This document shows, in pieces, positions 28,259-33,649 of a DNA stretch of 64,000 nucleotides (the first letter of the stretch is position 1; every line of letters begins with the position of its first letter). This DNA comes from Antarctobacter albus (GTDB taxonomy: Bacteria; Pseudomonadota; Alphaproteobacteria; Rhodobacterales; Rhodobacteraceae): assembly GCF_900101505.1 (NCBI RefSeq), contig NZ_FMZI01000007.1:124001-188000 (forward strand), written 5' to 3'. The notes beneath the pieces are model-generated. The model saw nothing but the letters and a program-made list of their open reading frames with translations. It was not told the DNA's origin and did not search any database. The position numbers were made by a program, and so were the translations under genes.

Positions 28259-29833
28259 TTATTCGCCGTCGCTGACCGCCGCCCAATCCAGTCCGAACCG
28301 CGCAAGGTACTTGCGCAGCCGGTCCGCATCATTGGTCGAGGTGCGTTTTGCCCGTGAGGCGGCGAAGAGGCTGCGCCCTGCTGCGCTGAGGCTGGCAGAG
28401 TTGCGGCAACAGCGGATCACCTCGGCCAGTTGCACCAGGTCGAAACGGTCGATCTCGGCGGCGGCCTCGCCCAGAATCTCCCGGACAAGCCTTGCATCGC
28501 CATCGGCCTCGGCGCTGCGCCAGTCGGCCTGCAGGGTTGCGATCTCATCCTCGACCATCGCCAGTGTGATCCGCCCGCGCGGGGCCAGCACGCACAAGCG
28601 CCGGATCGACCCGCCGAAATCGCGGAAATTGCCGGGCCAGGGCGTGCCCGGATCGGAGGCAAACCTCAGGTAACGGTCGCGGGCATCGGTGTTGAAGCCC
28701 ACGCGGTTGCCCAGGTCCTTTTCCGCCCGGTCCAATTCAAAGCGCAGGTTGGGCTCGATGTCCTCTCGCCGCTCACGCAGGGCGGGCAGGCGGAAACTCC
28801 ACATGTTCAGGCGCGCCAGCAGGTCGGAACGGAACAGCCCCTCAGCCGTTAAAGCGCGCAGGTCACGGTTCGCGCCCGCGATGACCTGGAACCGGCTTGT
28901 CACTTCGCTATCGGACCCCAGCGGATAAAATCGCCCGCTTTCGATGGCGTGCAACAGGATCGACTGCTCCTTGAGGCCCAGTTCGTCCACCTCGTCGAGG
29001 AACAGCACCCCTCCGTCCGCCTCGCGCAAGAGCCCGCTGCGTTCGGTCCCTGCCTGCCCGGTAAAGCTGCGTCGCTGGCCGAACAGCGTGGCCCGCGCAT
29101 CCTGGCCGCGCAGCGTGGCGCAGTTTACATGGACCAGCCGGCCCTTGAGCCGACGCCTGTCCAGTTTCAGCGAATAGATACGCTCGGCCAGCTGCGTCTT
29201 GCCGGTGCCGGTCTCCCCCAGCAGCAGGATCGGCTCATTGGAATTGCTGGCCACCAGTTCGATCCGGTCGATCAGCGCGTTGTAGGCGGGGTTCGAGGTC
29301 GCGATCCCGCCTTTCAACTGGTCACTGTATTCGCGGGACAGCTGATCGAACCGCTGTTGCAGCGCGTTGTAGCGGCTCAGGTCGAGGTCGATGAGGTCGA
29401 ACTTGGCCTTGTCCTCTTCCCGGCCTGGTGGGCCGGTCTGGATCAGCCGGGCGGGGATGTGGCGGCTTTCGGTCAGCAGGAACCAGCAGATCTGCGCCAC
29501 ATGCGTGCCTGTGGTCAGGTGAACGTGATACCTCTCGCGGTCCTCGTCGAATCCGTAGCCGCGGGCAAAGTCGAAGAGCTTGCCGTAGACCTCCTGGAAA
29601 TCCCAGGGGTCGGAGAGGTCGAGGTTGCGCAGCATGACCTCTGTCTGCGGATTGGTTTCCTGCACCTCCTGCCGGACGATGTCGGCAAGGTCCCTGAACC
29701 GCATGTCATAGAGGATTTCGAGCCGGTCGACGGGGAAGCCGTCATGCGTGACCAGACTCACCGTGGGCTTCCAGCGCCGCCTGCGCCCCATGTCGAGCTG
29801 CGTTCCGAGGAATCCGAGGACGACGTTGCGCAA
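28259..29833 (-). CDS. rtcR: RtcR, sigma54-dependent regulator of RNA repair genes
   Basis: A 524-residue RtcR. The N-terminal regulatory domain (1 to about 180) is the CARF-like module, with conserved LTTGTHVAQICWFLLTESR...ARLIQT. The AAA+ domain has Walker A GETGTGKT (206-213) and Walker B GGVLFLDE (274-281). The C-terminal region ends NDADRLRKYLARFGLDW. The loop that normally reads GAFTGA and contacts sigma54 is RSFTGQ here (255-260). Translation starts at TTG, chosen because MRNVVLGFLGT aligns with the family N-terminus. In Escherichia and Salmonella, RtcR responds to damaged tRNA or 2',3'-cyclic-phosphate RNA ends and switches on rtcB-containing operons. The Ro60-rtcB genes diverge from it. 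Confidence 0.9.
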   Translation of the reverse strand: MRNVVLGFLGTQLDMGRRRRWKPTVSLVTHDGFPVDRLEILYDMRFRDLADIVRQEVQETNPQTEVMLRNLDLSDPWDFQEVYGKLFDFARGYGFDEDRERYHVHLTTGTHVAQICWFLLTESRHIPARLIQTGPPGREEDKAKFDLIDLDLSRYNALQQRFDQLSREYSDQLKGGIATSNPAYNALIDRIELVASNSNEPILLLGETGTGKTQLAERIYSLKLDRRRLKGRLVHVNCATLRGQDARATLFGQRRSFTGQAGTERSGLLREADGGVLFLDEVDELGLKEQSILLHAIESGRFYPLGSDSEVTSRFQVIAGANRDLRALTAEGLFRSDLLARLNMWSFRLPALRERREDIEPNLRFELDRAEKDLGNRVGFNTDARDRYLRFASDPGTPWPGNFRDFGGSIRRLCVLAPRGRITLAMVEDEIATLQADWRSAEADGDARLVREILGEAAAEIDRFDLVQLAEVIRCCRNSASLSAAGRSLFAASRAKRTSTNDADRLRKYLARFGLDWAAVSDGE

Positions 29834-29952: not shown

Positions 29953-29968
29953 GGGCGACCGCCTTGCT
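29953..29968 (+). promoter_or_regulatory. candidate sigma54 (-24/-12) promoter of ro60
   Basis: The element GGGCGACCGCCTTGCT has the invariant GG (29954-29955) and GC (29966-29967) ten bases apart, and its -12 half TTGCT matches consensus. The -24 half (GGGCGA for TGGCAC) is weaker. It would start transcription near 29979, about 30 bases before the ro60 ATG. Control of this gene by RtcR makes a sigma54 promoter expected here. Confidence 0.5.
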
Positions 29969-30008: not shown

Positions 30009-31565
30009 ATGGCAAACAAATCCGTGTTTGCATCGATCCGGGGCCGGTTGCTGCCCAAGGCAACCACCGTGAACGCCGAAGGCGCGCCGGCCTACGCCTA
30101 TTCCGATGCACATGCCCTGGCGCAGATGGCGGCCACAGGCACATTCGGTGGCCTGTTCTACCAGTCCGCCCAGGATGAACTGACCCGTGTGGTTGCGCTT
30201 GCCGAAAAGGTCGAACCGGCCTTCCTGGCGCAGACGGCGATCTATGCCCGCCAGTCGGGCTACATGAAGGACATGCCAGCGGTGCTTCTGGCGGTGCTGG
30301 CGCGGCGCGATCCGGCGCTCTTCCGGGCGGTCTTTGGCCGCGTGGTGGATCACGGCAAGATGCTGCGGACCTTCGTGCAGATCGTGCGGTCGGGCCAGAC
30401 CGGGCGCAAGTCGCTGGGTTCGGCGCCCAAGGCGATGGTGCAGCACTGGCTGAACACGGCCTCGGACCGGGCCATCCTGAACGCCAATATCGGCAATGAT
30501 CCGTCGCTGAAGGACGTGATCAGGATGGTGCACCCGAAGCCGGAGACGGCAGAGCGCGAGGCGCTGTTCGCCTGGATCGTCGGGCGTCCCTGCGACGTGT
30601 CGAAACTGCCGGAGGCTGTGCAGGACTGGATGACCTTCAACGAAGGGGCCGACGGGGACTTGCCCGACGTGCCGTTCCAGATGCTGACGCAACTGCCGCT
30701 GACCGCGGACCACTGGGCGCAGATCGCGCGCAAGGGCTCGTGGCAGATGGTGCGCCAGAACCTGAACACCTTCCTGCGCAAGGGCGTCTTCGCCGATGCG
30801 CGGATGGTGGAACAGGTCGCAGCAAAGCTTCGAGACCCCAAGGCGGTCTCGAAGGCGCGGGCCTTTCCGTACCAGATGATGGTTGCGGCCAAGCACGCGA
30901 GCGACGAGATGCCCCGCGAGATCGTGGATGCCTTGCATGACGCGATGGAGTTGGCGGTGCGCAACGTGCCGAAGGTCTCTGGCGAGGTCGTGGTCTGCCC
31001 GGACGTCTCGGCGTCGATGACATGGCCGGTGACCGGCTACCGCAAGGGCGCAAGCTCGGCGGTGCGTCACGTGGACGTGGCCGCATTGGTTGCGGCGTCG
31101 TTCATGCGGGTGAACCGCAAGTGCCAGGTTCTGCCATTCGAGGTGACGGTGCGCAACGCACGCCTGAACCCGCGCGACACGATCCTGACCAACGCGGATC
31201 GCCTGTCGGCCCTGGCCGGGGGCGGGACCAACTGTTCGGCACCGCTGCGGCAGCTCAACGAGCGTCGTCGCGCACCGGACCTTGTGGTCTTCGTGTCCGA
31301 CAACCAGTCCTGGGTGGATGCCTGGGGCGGGCGCCAGTCGACGGCGATGATGCACGAGTGGGCGGCGCTGAAACGGCGCAACCCGCAGGCCAAGCTGGTC
31401 TGCATCGACATCGCGCCCTACGGCACGACGCAGGCGCAGACTCGTGAGGACGTGCTGAACATCGGCGGGTTCTCGGACGCGGTCTTTGACCGGATCGCGG
31501 ATTTCGCGAAGGGCCGGCAAGGGTCCGAGCACTGGGTGCAGGAGATCGAGAAGATCGAGCTCTGA
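30009..31565 (+). CDS. rsr: Ro60 ortholog (TROVE domain RNA-binding ring protein)
   Basis: A 518-residue bacterial Ro protein. The TROVE HEAT-repeat ring covers about 20-325. The C-terminal von Willebrand A domain keeps the MIDAS motif DVSAS (near 332), the Thr in GGGTNC (near 406) and VFVSDNQS. Ro60 binds Y RNAs on its outer surface and the ends of misfolded RNAs in its central hole; in bacteria it works with PNPase in RNA quality control. The ATG at 30009 has AAGGA at about nine bases, and the upstream in-frame codons overlap the presumed promoter. It is the first gene of the putative RtcR-controlled unit, followed by Y RNAs, a tRNA-like gene and rtcB. Confidence 0.92.
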   Translation: MANKSVFASIRGRLLPKATTVNAEGAPAYAYSDAHALAQMAATGTFGGLFYQSAQDELTRVVALAEKVEPAFLAQTAIYARQSGYMKDMPAVLLAVLARRDPALFRAVFGRVVDHGKMLRTFVQIVRSGQTGRKSLGSAPKAMVQHWLNTASDRAILNANIGNDPSLKDVIRMVHPKPETAEREALFAWIVGRPCDVSKLPEAVQDWMTFNEGADGDLPDVPFQMLTQLPLTADHWAQIARKGSWQMVRQNLNTFLRKGVFADARMVEQVAAKLRDPKAVSKARAFPYQMMVAAKHASDEMPREIVDALHDAMELAVRNVPKVSGEVVVCPDVSASMTWPVTGYRKGASSAVRHVDVAALVAASFMRVNRKCQVLPFEVTVRNARLNPRDTILTNADRLSALAGGGTNCSAPLRQLNERRRAPDLVVFVSDNQSWVDAWGGRQSTAMMHEWAALKRRNPQAKLVCIDIAPYGTTQAQTREDVLNIGGFSDAVFDRIADFAKGRQGSEHWVQEIEKIEL

Positions 31566-31580
31566 GCATCTGACACCAAA

Positions 31581-31656
31581 GGGTCAGGCGGAATGCCGAC
31601 GGGACTACATTTTCAGGACATGTACCTGTCTCGTCATTTTCTTGTCCGCCTGACCC
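31581..31656 (+). ncRNA. Y RNA-like RNA 1 (minimal form)
   Basis: It starts 15 bases after the ro60 stop. Stem 1 is a perfect 12-bp pairing, GGGTCAGGCGGA (31581-31592) with TCCGCCTGACCC (31645-31656). An asymmetric internal loop follows (ATGCC on the 5' side, ATTTTCTTG on the 3' side). Stem 2 is GACGGGAC (31598-31605) with GTCTCGTC (31628-31635). The apical part contains TACAT/ATGTA. The same plan, with identical ATGCC and TACA and a pyrimidine-rich strand ending TTG, recurs twice downstream. This fits a Ro-binding Y RNA stem. It lacks a tRNA-like module. Without T-run or other terminator features, a simple terminator is less likely. Confidence 0.72.
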
Positions 31657-31683: not shown

Positions 31684-31873
31684 TCCCGGCGAATGCCGGC
31701 GGAACTACAGCGCTGTTAACGCCCTGGTTGCGGGTTCGAATCCCGTCGCGGCCGCCACACACCATTCACGGGCAGGGTTTTCCCGCCTGTCGGATCGGTG
31801 TCCCAACGGGGACTATGGCCGCGTAGCTCAACGGAAGAGCAGGTCATGTTTCGCCACCCCTTTGTCGCCGGGA
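31684..31873 (+). ncRNA. Y RNA-like RNA 2 with tRNA-like module (YrlA type)
   Basis: Stem 1 is TCCCGGCGA (31684-31692) with TCGCCGGGA (31865-31873). The internal loop has ATGCC (5') and ACCCCTTTG (3'). Stem 2 is GGCGGAAC (31698-31705) with GTTTCGCC (31848-31855), including one G-U pair at the same place as in the other copies. About 140 bases between the stem-2 strands hold a tRNA-like module (separate entry). Bacterial YrlA RNAs are known to combine a Ro-binding stem with a tRNA mimic in which the T arm precedes the D arm; this RNA has that order. The position between Ro60 and RtcB genes supports the call. Confidence 0.8.
31708..31841 (+). ncRNA. circularly permuted tRNA-Asn-like module inside Y RNA 2
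   Basis: The 3' half of a tRNA comes first. It has an anticodon-like hairpin (GCG, loop CTGTTAA, CGC at 31710-31722; GTT in the anticodon position), a 5-base variable loop, a T arm (GCGGG, TTCGAAT, CCCGT at 31730-31746), acceptor strand CGCGGCC (31747-31753), discriminator G and CCA (31755-31757). After 59 bases comes the 5' half: acceptor strand GGCCGCG (31817-31823, seven pairs with the 3' strand), TA, and a D arm (GCTC, AACGGAA, GAGC at 31826-31840). Rejoined, the parts give a normal-sized cloverleaf with tRNA-Asn features (loop, G73), except that the anticodon stem has only three pairs. The break lies between positions 26 and 27, where the Ro-binding stem attaches. Confidence 0.75.
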
Positions 31874-31881
31874 CAAATTAC

Positions 31882-31958
31882 CAGGGATTAGCTCAGTTTG
31901 GCAGAGTGCCGCACCCGGACTGCGGAAGCCGAAGGTTCGAGTCCTTCATCCCTGACCA
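31882..31958 (+). tRNA. tRNA-like gene, CGG at the anticodon position, lacks U33
   Basis: A full cloverleaf. Acceptor CAGGGAT pairs with ATCCCTG (7 pairs). The D arm is GCTC/GAGT with GG in its loop. The anticodon stem CCGCA/TGCGG has 5 pairs and loop CCCGGAC. The variable loop is AAGCC, and the T arm GAAGG/CCTTC has loop TTCGAGT. Discriminator A is followed by encoded CCA (31956-31958). The anticodon position reads CGG (31916-31918), which would be proline, but position 33, almost universally U, is C (31915). It lies eight bases after Y RNA 2 and 94 before Y RNA 3. It may be a real tRNA, a decayed one, a repair/sensing decoy or a processing signal; the sequence alone does not decide. Confidence 0.72.
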
Positions 31959-32052
31959 TTTCATCCGGGAGGAATGCCTGCGGGGTTACTTGTCTTTCAC
32001 ACACGCCACACCTCGCAACTCCTTGTCCTCCCGGCCAAATTCGAAAGGAAAT

Positions 32053-32200
32053 CCCCGGCGAATGCCGAAGGAACTACATGCCTCCAACCAGACCGGGTCA
32101 CCAGGCGGTTCGATTCCGCCTTTGGCAATCGCCCAGACGGCAAACGCGCGTCACGCGCGGGGCGGGTCCCGGACATGTTTCTTCACCCTTGTCGCCGGGG
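32053..32200 (+). ncRNA. Y RNA-like RNA 3 with degenerate tRNA-like module
   Basis: Stem 1 is CCCCGGCGA (32053-32061) with TCGCCGGGG (32192-32200). The internal loop has ATGCC (5') and ACCCTTG (3'). Stem 2 is GAAGGAAC (32067-32074) with GTTTCTTC (32177-32184). The first 30 bases are nearly identical to Y RNA 2, including a shared GAAAGGA lead-in. The insert contains a perfect T arm (GGCGG, TTCGATT, CCGCC at 32104-32120), a short acceptor-like TTTG/CAAA pairing and a CGCGCG-TCA-CGCGCG hairpin (32145-32159) where the D arm would be. It ends about 20 bases before the rtcB start, so it may be cut from the rtcB mRNA leader. Confidence 0.75.
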
Positions 32201-32221
32201 GCCATTTCAGGAGATGTTTTC

Positions 32222-33649
32222 ATGACGATGTCGGATGAAGCCACGTTTGACCCGGTCACCGGGCACCACCTCAAGGACTGGGGCCACCGCCCTGGCAAGC
32301 ATTTCCCCGTTCTGCTGGAAAAGGCGAACGCGATGCGTGCCGAGGGTTACGGCCTTGTGCGCATCCGCCAGGAATTGGATGGAATGGCCCCGCCAGAGCC
32401 GGACACGCTGGCGCTGCGCGCGCCCGGCGAATTGGCCTTTTCCGAGAACATCGAGATTTCGCATCCCGACGAGCAGGAGAACGTCGCCAAGGTCCGTGCC
32501 ACCATGCGCGAACTGATGCGCACGCCCACGATCGAGGCGGGGGCGATCATGCCCGACGCCTGCCCGGCAGGACCGGAAGGGACGATCCCGGTCGGGGGCG
32601 TGGCGGCTGCAAGAAACGCGATTCATCCCGGGATGCATTCGGCCGACATCTGTTGTTCGGTCATGATCTCGGACATGGGGATGGCCGATCCCGGGGCGGT
32701 GCTGGATGCCGCGCAGTCGGTCACGCATTTCGGACCCGGCGGGCGCCCGCAGGGCAAACGCTATAGCCTGCCAGTCGATCTGCTGGACGAGATTCGCTAC
32801 AACTCCTTCCTCTGCACGCAGAAGATCCTGGGAATGGCGCAGGCGCACCTGGGGACGCAGGGGGATGGCAATCATTTCCTGTTCGTCGGACGCTCACGCA
32901 GGACCGGGCGCACGGCGATGGTCACGCACCACGGCTCTCGCGGTCCGGGGGCGGTGCTCTACAAGGAGGGGATGATCGCGGCGGAACGTTTTCGCCGAGA
33001 GCTGTCGCCCGAAACGCTGAAGCAGAACGCCTGGATTCCGGCGGACAGCGAAGAGGGGCAGGACTACTGGGACGCCCTGCAGATCATCCGCCAGTGGACC
33101 AAGACCAACCACGCGATGATCCACGACGCGACGGCGGCGGTTGCCGGGGCCGAGGTGGGCGACCGTTTCTGGAACGAGCACAACTTCGTCTTCAAGCGTG
33201 GCGATCTCTACTTTCACGGCAAGGGCGCGACCCCGGCCTGGAAGGACTATGCCGATGACGCCAGCGGGTTGACGCTGATCCCGCTGAACATGGCGCAGCC
33301 GGTCCTGGTGACGCGCGGGTTGGATGCGGCAAGCGGGCTGGGGTTCAGCCCGCATGGGGCCGGGCGCAACTTTTCCCGTTCCGAGCACCGCCGCCGCATG
33401 GGATCGGTCACGCCCGACCAGATGCTGAAGGCCGAGACAGAGGGGCTGGACATCCGGTTTCACGCCGGGGCGGTGGATGCCTCGGAACTGCCGTCCAGCT
33501 ACAAGGATGCGGACAGCGTCGTGGCGCAGATCAAGTCCTACGGGCTGGCCGAAATCGAGGATTACATCGACCCTTACGGCTGCATCATGGCGGGCGACGT
33601 GCCACCGTTCTGGGCCAAGAAAAAGAAGGGTGCCCGGCGCGGTGCCTGA
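32222..33649 (+). CDS. rtcB: RNA-splicing ligase RtcB
   Basis: A 475-residue RtcB, the GTP-dependent ligase joining 2',3'-cyclic phosphate or 3'-phosphate RNA ends to 5'-OH ends. Metal and active-site segments are present: SADICCSV (Asp/Cys metal ligands), GTQGDGNHF, HHGSRGPG, HNFVFKRGDLYFHGKG and SPHGAGRNFSR, whose His (about 378) is the guanylylated residue. The ATG at 32222 follows AGGAG at about nine bases. No rtcA is present next to it. Its location behind Ro60, Y RNAs and a tRNA-like gene suggests repair of cleaved tRNA or Y RNA under RtcR control. Confidence 0.92.
   Translation: MTMSDEATFDPVTGHHLKDWGHRPGKHFPVLLEKANAMRAEGYGLVRIRQELDGMAPPEPDTLALRAPGELAFSENIEISHPDEQENVAKVRATMRELMRTPTIEAGAIMPDACPAGPEGTIPVGGVAAARNAIHPGMHSADICCSVMISDMGMADPGAVLDAAQSVTHFGPGGRPQGKRYSLPVDLLDEIRYNSFLCTQKILGMAQAHLGTQGDGNHFLFVGRSRRTGRTAMVTHHGSRGPGAVLYKEGMIAAERFRRELSPETLKQNAWIPADSEEGQDYWDALQIIRQWTKTNHAMIHDATAAVAGAEVGDRFWNEHNFVFKRGDLYFHGKGATPAWKDYADDASGLTLIPLNMAQPVLVTRGLDAASGLGFSPHGAGRNFSRSEHRRRMGSVTPDQMLKAETEGLDIRFHAGAVDASELPSSYKDADSVVAQIKSYGLAEIEDYIDPYGCIMAGDVPPFWAKKKKGARRGA

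Follow-up and report, generated by a model that had tools for sequence, protein, structure and literature searches.

A Y RNA with a permuted four-arm tRNA module and an exchangeable anticodon loop beside RtcB and RtcR: a possible anticodon-nuclease bait

A locus of Antarctobacter albus bears on the role of bacterial Y RNAs in RNA repair, through an anticodon arm whose identity differs among relatives. The locus lies in a window of 64,000 nucleotides (the whole stretch of DNA that we analysed), where the genes are ordered rtcR (minus strand), Ro60, Y RNA 1, Y RNA 2, tRNA-Pro(CGG), Y RNA 3, Y RNA 4 and RtcB.

The repair operon and the anatomy of Y RNA 2

The gene for RtcR, the activator of the RNA-repair operon, occupies positions 28259–29833 on the minus strand and passes the cut-off of NCBIfam NF038308 (694 bits; cut-off 650); the other features of the window described here are on the plus strand. 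A sigma-54-like GG-N10-GC element, read by eye 5′ of Ro60 at 29954–29967, is a candidate that presumably would suit a sigma-54 promoter. The Ro60/Rsr relative (30009–31565, start codon picked by eye) scores 69.3 bits (E 2e-19) with NCBIfam NF041674 Rsr, under the cut-off of 900, and 23.5 bits with Pfam TROVE, for which the cut-off is 23; the Ro60 sequences closest to it are from Mameliella (95% to locus L075). The RtcB-family RNA ligase (32222–33649) matches NCBIfam NF007153 at 62.9 bits, under the cut-off of 407.

Three of the Y RNAs, all with ends placed by eye, are simpler than Y RNA 2. Y RNA 1 (31582–31656) is without T or D arm and forms an ACAT..ATGT hairpin, the 9-nt loop of which contains TTCAGGA, one base off the Leu(CAG) loop TTCAGGT; L051 and L060 have ACATT-TTCAGGT-AATGT for comparison. 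Y RNA 3 (31965–32034) has the hairpin TGT-CTTTCAC-ACA, with a Glu-like loop that is absent from our reference set of tRNA loops. Y RNA 4 (32054–32201) has a T-arm-like hairpin, and no anticodon hairpin was called in it. The tRNA-Pro(CGG) gene sitting among the Y RNAs (31882–31958) is the second Pro(CGG) gene of the genome and has the loop CCCGGAC, with C33.

Y RNA 2 (31686–31874) narrowly passes the gathering score of Rfam YrlA (RF02553), with 69.1 bits against 69. Membership of the YrlA class is also indicated by its location beside the Ro60 relative, which ends at 31565, and by its permuted order of T arm, acceptor and D arm; the RNA keeps the Ro-stem motif, from which Ro60 binding is predicted. 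No Rfam model other than RF02553 and RF00005 attains its threshold in the window, where the alpha-tmRNA model RF01849 gives no match. The 5′ strands of the outer (31686–31692) and inner (31698–31705) Ro stem have their partners at 31865–31871 and 31848–31855, respectively. Between them the halves of a tRNA are laid out in reverse order. The anticodon arm, tRNA positions 29–43, comes first (31710–31724): GCG (31710–31712), the loop CTGTTAA (31713–31719), which is identical to the loop of tRNA-Asn(GTT) of the same genome, CGC (31720–31722) and CC, positions 42–43 (31723–31724). It is followed by a variable loop of 5 nt (44–48; 31725–31729), the T arm (49–65; 31730–31746) and a segment (31747–31757) made up of the acceptor 3′ strand (66–72; 31747–31753), G73 (31754) and an encoded CCA (31755–31757). 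A linker of 59 nt (31758–31816), with two predicted hairpins and the same length in L046 and L075, connects the CCA to position 1. The 5′ half (31817–31840) comprises the acceptor 5′ strand (1–7; 31817–31823), which pairs 7/7, TA (31824–31825) and the D arm (10–25; 31826–31840), and it ends in A26 and G27–G28 (31841–31843).

The first-pass annotation of this DNA had read Y RNA 2 as containing a permuted tRNA mimic, and both the RF02553 match and our element-by-element reading bear this out; the seven perfect acceptor pairs, G73, the encoded CCA and the 59-nt spacer that it listed are all present. It was also right that the anticodon arm and the encoded CCA go beyond the YrlA plan: neither is in the Rfam YrlA consensus, and the anticodon hairpin enters the RF02553 alignment as a 14-nt insert between the Ro stem and the T arm. 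Its placement of the break between positions 26 and 27 needs correction. G31842–G31843 (27–28) can pair with C31724–C31723 (43–42), under the pairs 29–41, 30–40 and 31–39; the 5-bp anticodon stem can thus be whole, with the Ro stem inserted between 28 and 29. The cloverleaf is not contiguous: ARAGORN run on the window reports tRNA-Pro only, and the cloverleaf of Y RNA 2 appears after rejoining. That Y RNA 2 is a YrlA-type Y RNA with a complete, circularly permuted four-arm tRNA is, as a reading of sequence, well supported.

The anticodon stem across relatives

Relatives were collected by scanning genome contigs, with 80 named Ro60 loci being the best of 418; addition of three plasmid loci by DNA similarity (two from Rhizobium, one from Shinella) resulted in 83 loci plus the window. 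As a relative finder Pfam TROVE recovered 9 of the 385 genomes of the class and was replaced by a three-protein alignment. Within the DNA available around each locus, RtcB was matched in 70/83 loci and RtcR in 80/83. The Rfam YrlA scan gave a match in 119 of 292 genomes, over the cut-off in only 15; the many matches at ~28–34 bits are probably neighbouring tRNA gene pairs or chance, and were set aside.

The Y RNA 5′-arm motif has 376 matches in the 83 loci and the window. Two, located far 5′ of Ro60, were dropped prior to parsing, and a few that lie inside or far from genes were retained. The resulting 106 candidate permuted modules were reduced by stricter rules to 91, the 15 others having fewer than 6 acceptor pairs or a T stem more than 30 nt in. 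Length permits an anticodon arm in the tRNA register (5-base variable loop, 7-base loop) in 69 of the 91, the remaining 22 being too short. All three distal pairs are formed in 57 of the 69, spread over 54 loci, and 12 are without them; of 34 control registers tried, 33 give 0–5 modules, the exception (22 modules) being nested in the true stem. The parser requires GCYC..GAGC in the D arm, and so the unchanged D stem (0/840 differences) was discarded as evidence: it informs us no further than that 87/91 modules fit the D-arm rule.

The pairs of the stem were counted in 67 modules that had not been selected on pairing. Standard pairs are formed at 27–43 in 66 modules, at 28–42 in 64, at 29–41 in 58, at 30–40 in 61 and at 31–39 in 62; the highest counts in 2000 shuffles, which do not take out kinship, are 47, 59, 44, 45 and 53, respectively, and sliding the partner by up to 3 columns gives at best 45, 60, 46, 41 and 48. 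The weakest of the five pairs is 28–42, since it hardly varies from G-C and sliding the partner does almost as well (60/67). Pair 27–43, the strands of which are far apart in the gene, is G-C in 40 modules and C-G in 22, and 26–44 is unpaired across modules, as it is in tRNA. Both lower pairs are also present in 17/30 modules that lack the distal arm. The acceptor sequences of the 57 modules are diverse yet paired, under an entry rule of at least 6/7 pairs. The first-pass annotation had staked its reading on conservation of the acceptor pairing 31747–31753/31817–31823; the pairing survives in relatives by compensatory changes, with the same selection for at least 6/7 pairs, and the reading thus withstands its own test.

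The same pattern recurs outside the discovery set, in 13 further distinct eligible modules from the same class, other classes of the phylum (L214–L216) and viral contigs: distal pairs are formed in 8/13 and both lower pairs in 13/13. Three of these (L007/L133, L018 and L022) had been viewed by eye before the rule was set; for the ten that were unseen when it was fixed, the counts are 6/10 and 10/10. Once rejoined, 57/57 sequences are called as tRNA by ARAGORN, as are 7/30 rejoined arm-less controls.

As proof of the arm, energy folding failed, and imposing the pairs left the result unchanged. The minimum-energy fold of Y RNA 2 from the window has no such arm and forms instead a hairpin that is off by one base, and the stability of the whole RNA is ordinary (z -1.70; 11/200 shuffles at least as stable). 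Minimum-energy folds of the 57 RNAs contain the distal pairs in 11 cases and both lower pairs in 1. Energy models handle short helices at junctions poorly. We consider the anticodon arm well supported by the comparative evidence, on which it rests, with the rarity of energy-fold support lowering the certainty.

Anticodon loops and their exchange

The 57 loops represent 29 distinct sequences. U33 is present in 48 and absent from 9, position 37 is a purine in 54, and position 38 is A or C in 57/57. The commonest anticodon is GTT (21 modules), followed by GTC, GTG and CTT (5 each), TTG and ACG (3 each), TCT, TTT and GAT (2 each) and nine single ones. Compared with a reference of 68 tRNA loops from this genome and the loci, from which two loops were removed by judgement as false tRNA calls, 34/57 modules and 12/29 distinct loops are exact matches; limiting the reference to the tRNAs of this genome leaves 23/57 and 8/29. 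Random change starting from the commonest Asn loop, with distances kept equal, produces on average 2.6 matches and at most 9 in 5000 trials, against 11 observed among the other 28 loops, and column shuffling attains the observed 12 in 5/5000.

Different anticodons are found on one and the same stem. On the GCG–CGC stem the window has CTGTTAA, L046 has CTTCTCA, L048 has CTTCTAA and L056 has CTTTTAA. The tRNA-Asn label of the first-pass annotation consequently holds for this species and does not extend to the relatives, in which the same stem carries Arg or Lys anticodons. Across relatives the ACA–TGT stem is found with anticodons for His, Gln, Lys, Asn, Arg and Met, and two assemblies titled Ruegeria lacuscaerulensis differ in having TTTCGAC vs TTGTTAA. 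A quick Ro60 tree (54 loci, one module per locus) requires at least 24 anticodon changes. As far as sequence comparison goes, then, the anticodon has been exchanged in place on a constant scaffold. As a separate observation, six-base loops, as if one base short, occupy the anticodon slot at L051 4145, L055 6840, L063 6976 and L065 6745, one example being AGA-TCATAA-TCT.

Loops of tRNA type are also found in the 283 Y RNAs in which no module was parsed; removal of 33 that are duplicates in the first 30 nt left 250 distinct ones, a set that may contain a few modules overlooked by the parser. We called hairpins that have at least 4 stem pairs and a seven-base loop immediately 3′ of ACUAC. Forty-one such hairpins were found, 29 of which meet a loose loop rule and 18 of which reproduce a loop of the reference exactly (Asn 5, Leu 5, Trp 3, Ser 3, Asp 1, Pro 1); 16/41 are exact when the reference is limited to the tRNAs of this genome. 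Mononucleotide shuffles give 14.4 hairpins, 0.76 loose and 0.05 exact loops, and the same caller applied 10–30 bases further 3′ gives 19–53 hairpins, 3–23 loose and 0–2 exact loops. Since shuffles and downstream slots also yield hairpins and loose loops, the weight rests on the exact matches.

Possible functions and known systems

The reading that we place first, and hold tentatively, is that Y RNA 2 may be a re-sealable bait for anticodon nucleases, positioned beside RtcB and RtcR; of the proposals in the first-pass annotation this is the one that fits best. Damage to tRNA would activate RtcR and thereby turn on Ro60, the Y RNAs, the spare tRNAs and RtcB, a step that others have shown for Salmonella and that homology and gene order suggest here. 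The ligands that PMC7790460 reports for RtcR are 5′ tRNA fragments ending in a cyclic phosphate. The Ro stem, inserted between 28 and 29, would hold the anticodon loop out beside the Ro60 particle, and the Y RNAs would in this way display the anticodon arms of targeted tRNAs, diverting anticodon nucleases. A cut loop would be held by the remaining structure and re-sealed by RtcB, making the bait reusable. The replacement of the anticodon in place on a constant scaffold, described above, may have been driven by an arms race. That Y RNA 2 is expressed, cut, re-sealed and protective is what we infer; that these RNAs carry the type of loop cut by anticodon nucleases favours cutting of the bait in place of the tRNA. 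The authors of PMC7790460 suggest that YrlA might competitively inhibit the nuclease. Against the reading, they report that YrlA fragments were not detected in Salmonella after nuclease activation, although the Salmonella RNA is described as having no anticodon arm; the bait, being under the response's own promoter, would moreover act after the onset of damage. With an arm of varying identity on an unchanging scaffold, the bait reading directly predicts which nuclease each Y RNA would intercept.

It is possible, although doubtful, that the whole tRNA shape is instead a scaffold that recruits RtcB, PNPase and modification enzymes to Ro60, with the anticodon arm aiding binding and its exact sequence being of minor importance. 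The review PMC8394870 describes YrlA as a partner of PNPase and a substrate of the modification enzymes DusA and TruB. How the module changes was assessed in 105 module pairs that share their distal stem and have a Ro60 identity of 80% or more; the pairs are not independent. The T stem is near-constant (11/1050 site comparisons differ, or 0.010 per site), as expected of a scaffold; the acceptor differs at 0.331 per site, anticodon positions 34–36 at 0.479 and the rest of that loop at 0.226, and for the free T-loop positions 59–60 the value is 0.386. This explanation, however, accounts neither for loops turning into other real tRNA loops nor for tRNA loops in Y RNAs where no T/D module was parsed.

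The modules might also stem from captured tRNA genes, with arms that are inherited but unused and loops that drift freely, which we regard as unlikely. In line with such an origin, the best-scoring alignment of the rejoined window module is to a tRNA-Asp of this genome (60 matches/75 nt), and a tRNA-Met of the genome has 61 matches with more gaps. The anticodon is, moreover, only slightly faster than the free T-loop positions (0.479 vs 0.386), and speed alone therefore does not demonstrate an arms race, weakening fast anticodon change as a proof of it. Yet the stem pairs are maintained across split strands, U33, a purine at 37 and A/C at 38 are kept, and exact tRNA loops exceed the drift null.

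Other resemblances to tRNA genes were observed. A second tRNA-Asp(GTC), with loop TTGTCTA, at G000:C26 181421–181451 (L180, L206) matches the Y RNA 2 module over 31 nt at 94%, and its neighbours resemble, by eye, rpmI, rplT and pheS. A tRNA-Met of this genome (L164) has an anticodon stem near-identical to 31710–31729 plus 31841–31843, differing mainly at the anticodon. Two adjacent unusual tRNA genes lie at G000:C14 18835–18984 (L184), one with the Lys-like loop CCTTTAA and the other with a four-base anticodon according to ARAGORN.

Maturation as a permuted precursor, in which RNase P and 3′ trimming excise the linker and the RNA is left in two pieces, with a CCA end that is free and may be charged, appears improbable. 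CCA follows N73 in 42/91 modules, namely 39/57 with the arm vs 3/34 without it; G73 and GUU of the window copy fit the identity rules of AsnRS; and the genome encodes elsewhere a permuted alpha-tmRNA (RF01849, 317.5 bits), so enzymes maturing a permuted tRNA-like RNA should be present. N73 nevertheless fails to track the anticodon across the family: it is mixed within the GTT class (G 11, U 5, A 4, C 1 among 21 modules), A in 5/5 GTG modules and G in both GAT modules. While N73 and position 1 are separated by 2 to 62 bases, 11 of the 42 CCA modules have a single base from CCA to position 1, and the Ro stem would probably clash with the ribosome. Charging is thus unlikely as a function common to the modules, and maturation to tRNA, which the first-pass annotation had also proposed, is unsupported as such. 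Least probable of all is that the RNAs compete for, or are substrates of, anticodon-loop modification enzymes: tRNAs with Q34 or t6A37 are prominent among the loops and GTN anticodons make up 31/57, but the two classes do not cover the Arg(ACG), Gln, Leu, Trp and Ser(TGA) loops, and GTT may dominate by descent.

Returning to the bait reading, a wider version of it would make Ro60 repair operons a changeable repertoire of anticodon baits, with loops of different tRNAs on different Y RNAs, spare tRNAs (Asn, Gln, Lys, Pro) in other slots, re-sealing by RtcB and an arms race behind the changes; we think this conceivable rather than probable. Within the Y RNA clusters of 84 loci ARAGORN makes 61 tRNA calls. 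Two are doubtful, and the other 59, which may be the spare tRNAs, divide into Asn (22), Lys (13), Gln (12) and Pro (12). The idea that U33 loss marks embedded tRNA genes as decoys was rejected, with U33 present in 56/60. An Asn loop in the module is found in 0/12 operons with a tRNA-Asn gene vs 21/42 without one (54 operons, kinship uncontrolled); over all amino acids non-redundancy of the repertoire is not significant (3 coincidences vs 5.9 expected, p 0.07), and L089, where a plain Y RNA with an Asn loop lies beside a tRNA-Asn gene, is a counterexample. Long arrays of tRNA genes were also seen 5′ of Ro60 in L109 (1542–2532, 10), L114 (2246–4346, 17) and L115 (1305–2513, 8 ARAGORN calls).

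Ro60 loci are found in viruses as well. A Ro60 relative occurs in 186 phage records, of which 125 are from Streptomyces phages. Four viral loci on contigs (L199, L201, L202 and L203) contain Y RNA motifs, and anticodon-like loops accompany some of these; there are 9 tRNA calls in L199 and 15 in L203, and a tmRNA call in L201. The Met-like loop TTCATAA of L203 is accompanied by an encoded CCA and 4/5 stem pairs, one of them G-U, and L199 and L201 have plain Y RNAs with the loops CTGATAA and CTTGAAA, read by eye. Within the DNA available around them, ten viral Ro60 loci contain between them one weak RtcB match and no RtcR.

If the bait reading is true, Ro60, RtcB and tRNA-cutting toxins or defence would be joined in one mechanism. 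The closest operon for comparison, Salmonella rsr-yrlBA-rtcBA (PMC7790460), likewise brings together Ro60, Y RNAs, RtcB and RtcR, and differs in the fragment result given above and in that the Y RNAs here display anticodon loops. Two-piece alpha-proteobacterial tmRNA (RF01849) is, similarly, a permuted tRNA-like RNA with a representative in this genome; Y RNA 2 is set apart by its anticodon arm and Ro stem and does not match RF01849. Circularly permuted tRNA genes also place the 3′ half first and join CCA to position 1 by a linker; here a Ro-binding stem fills the other junction, and N73 does not follow the anticodon. An anticodon arm in a bacterial Y RNA, or a decoy role for one, was not found in the literature searched, a search that did not take in the primary YrlA papers, where it may have been described before. 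The permuted layout is already known for YrlA, and what appears to be undescribed in that literature is the complete, swappable anticodon arm. YrlA itself (RF02553; Salmonella, PDB 6CU1) shares with Y RNA 2 the Ro stem, the permuted order of T arm, acceptor and D arm and the location beside Ro60 and RtcB. In the available part of the review PMC8394870 no arms other than D, T and acceptor are named for it, and its Rfam consensus is without an anticodon arm, in contrast to the 5-bp stem split at 28/29, the real tRNA loop and the encoded CCA found here.
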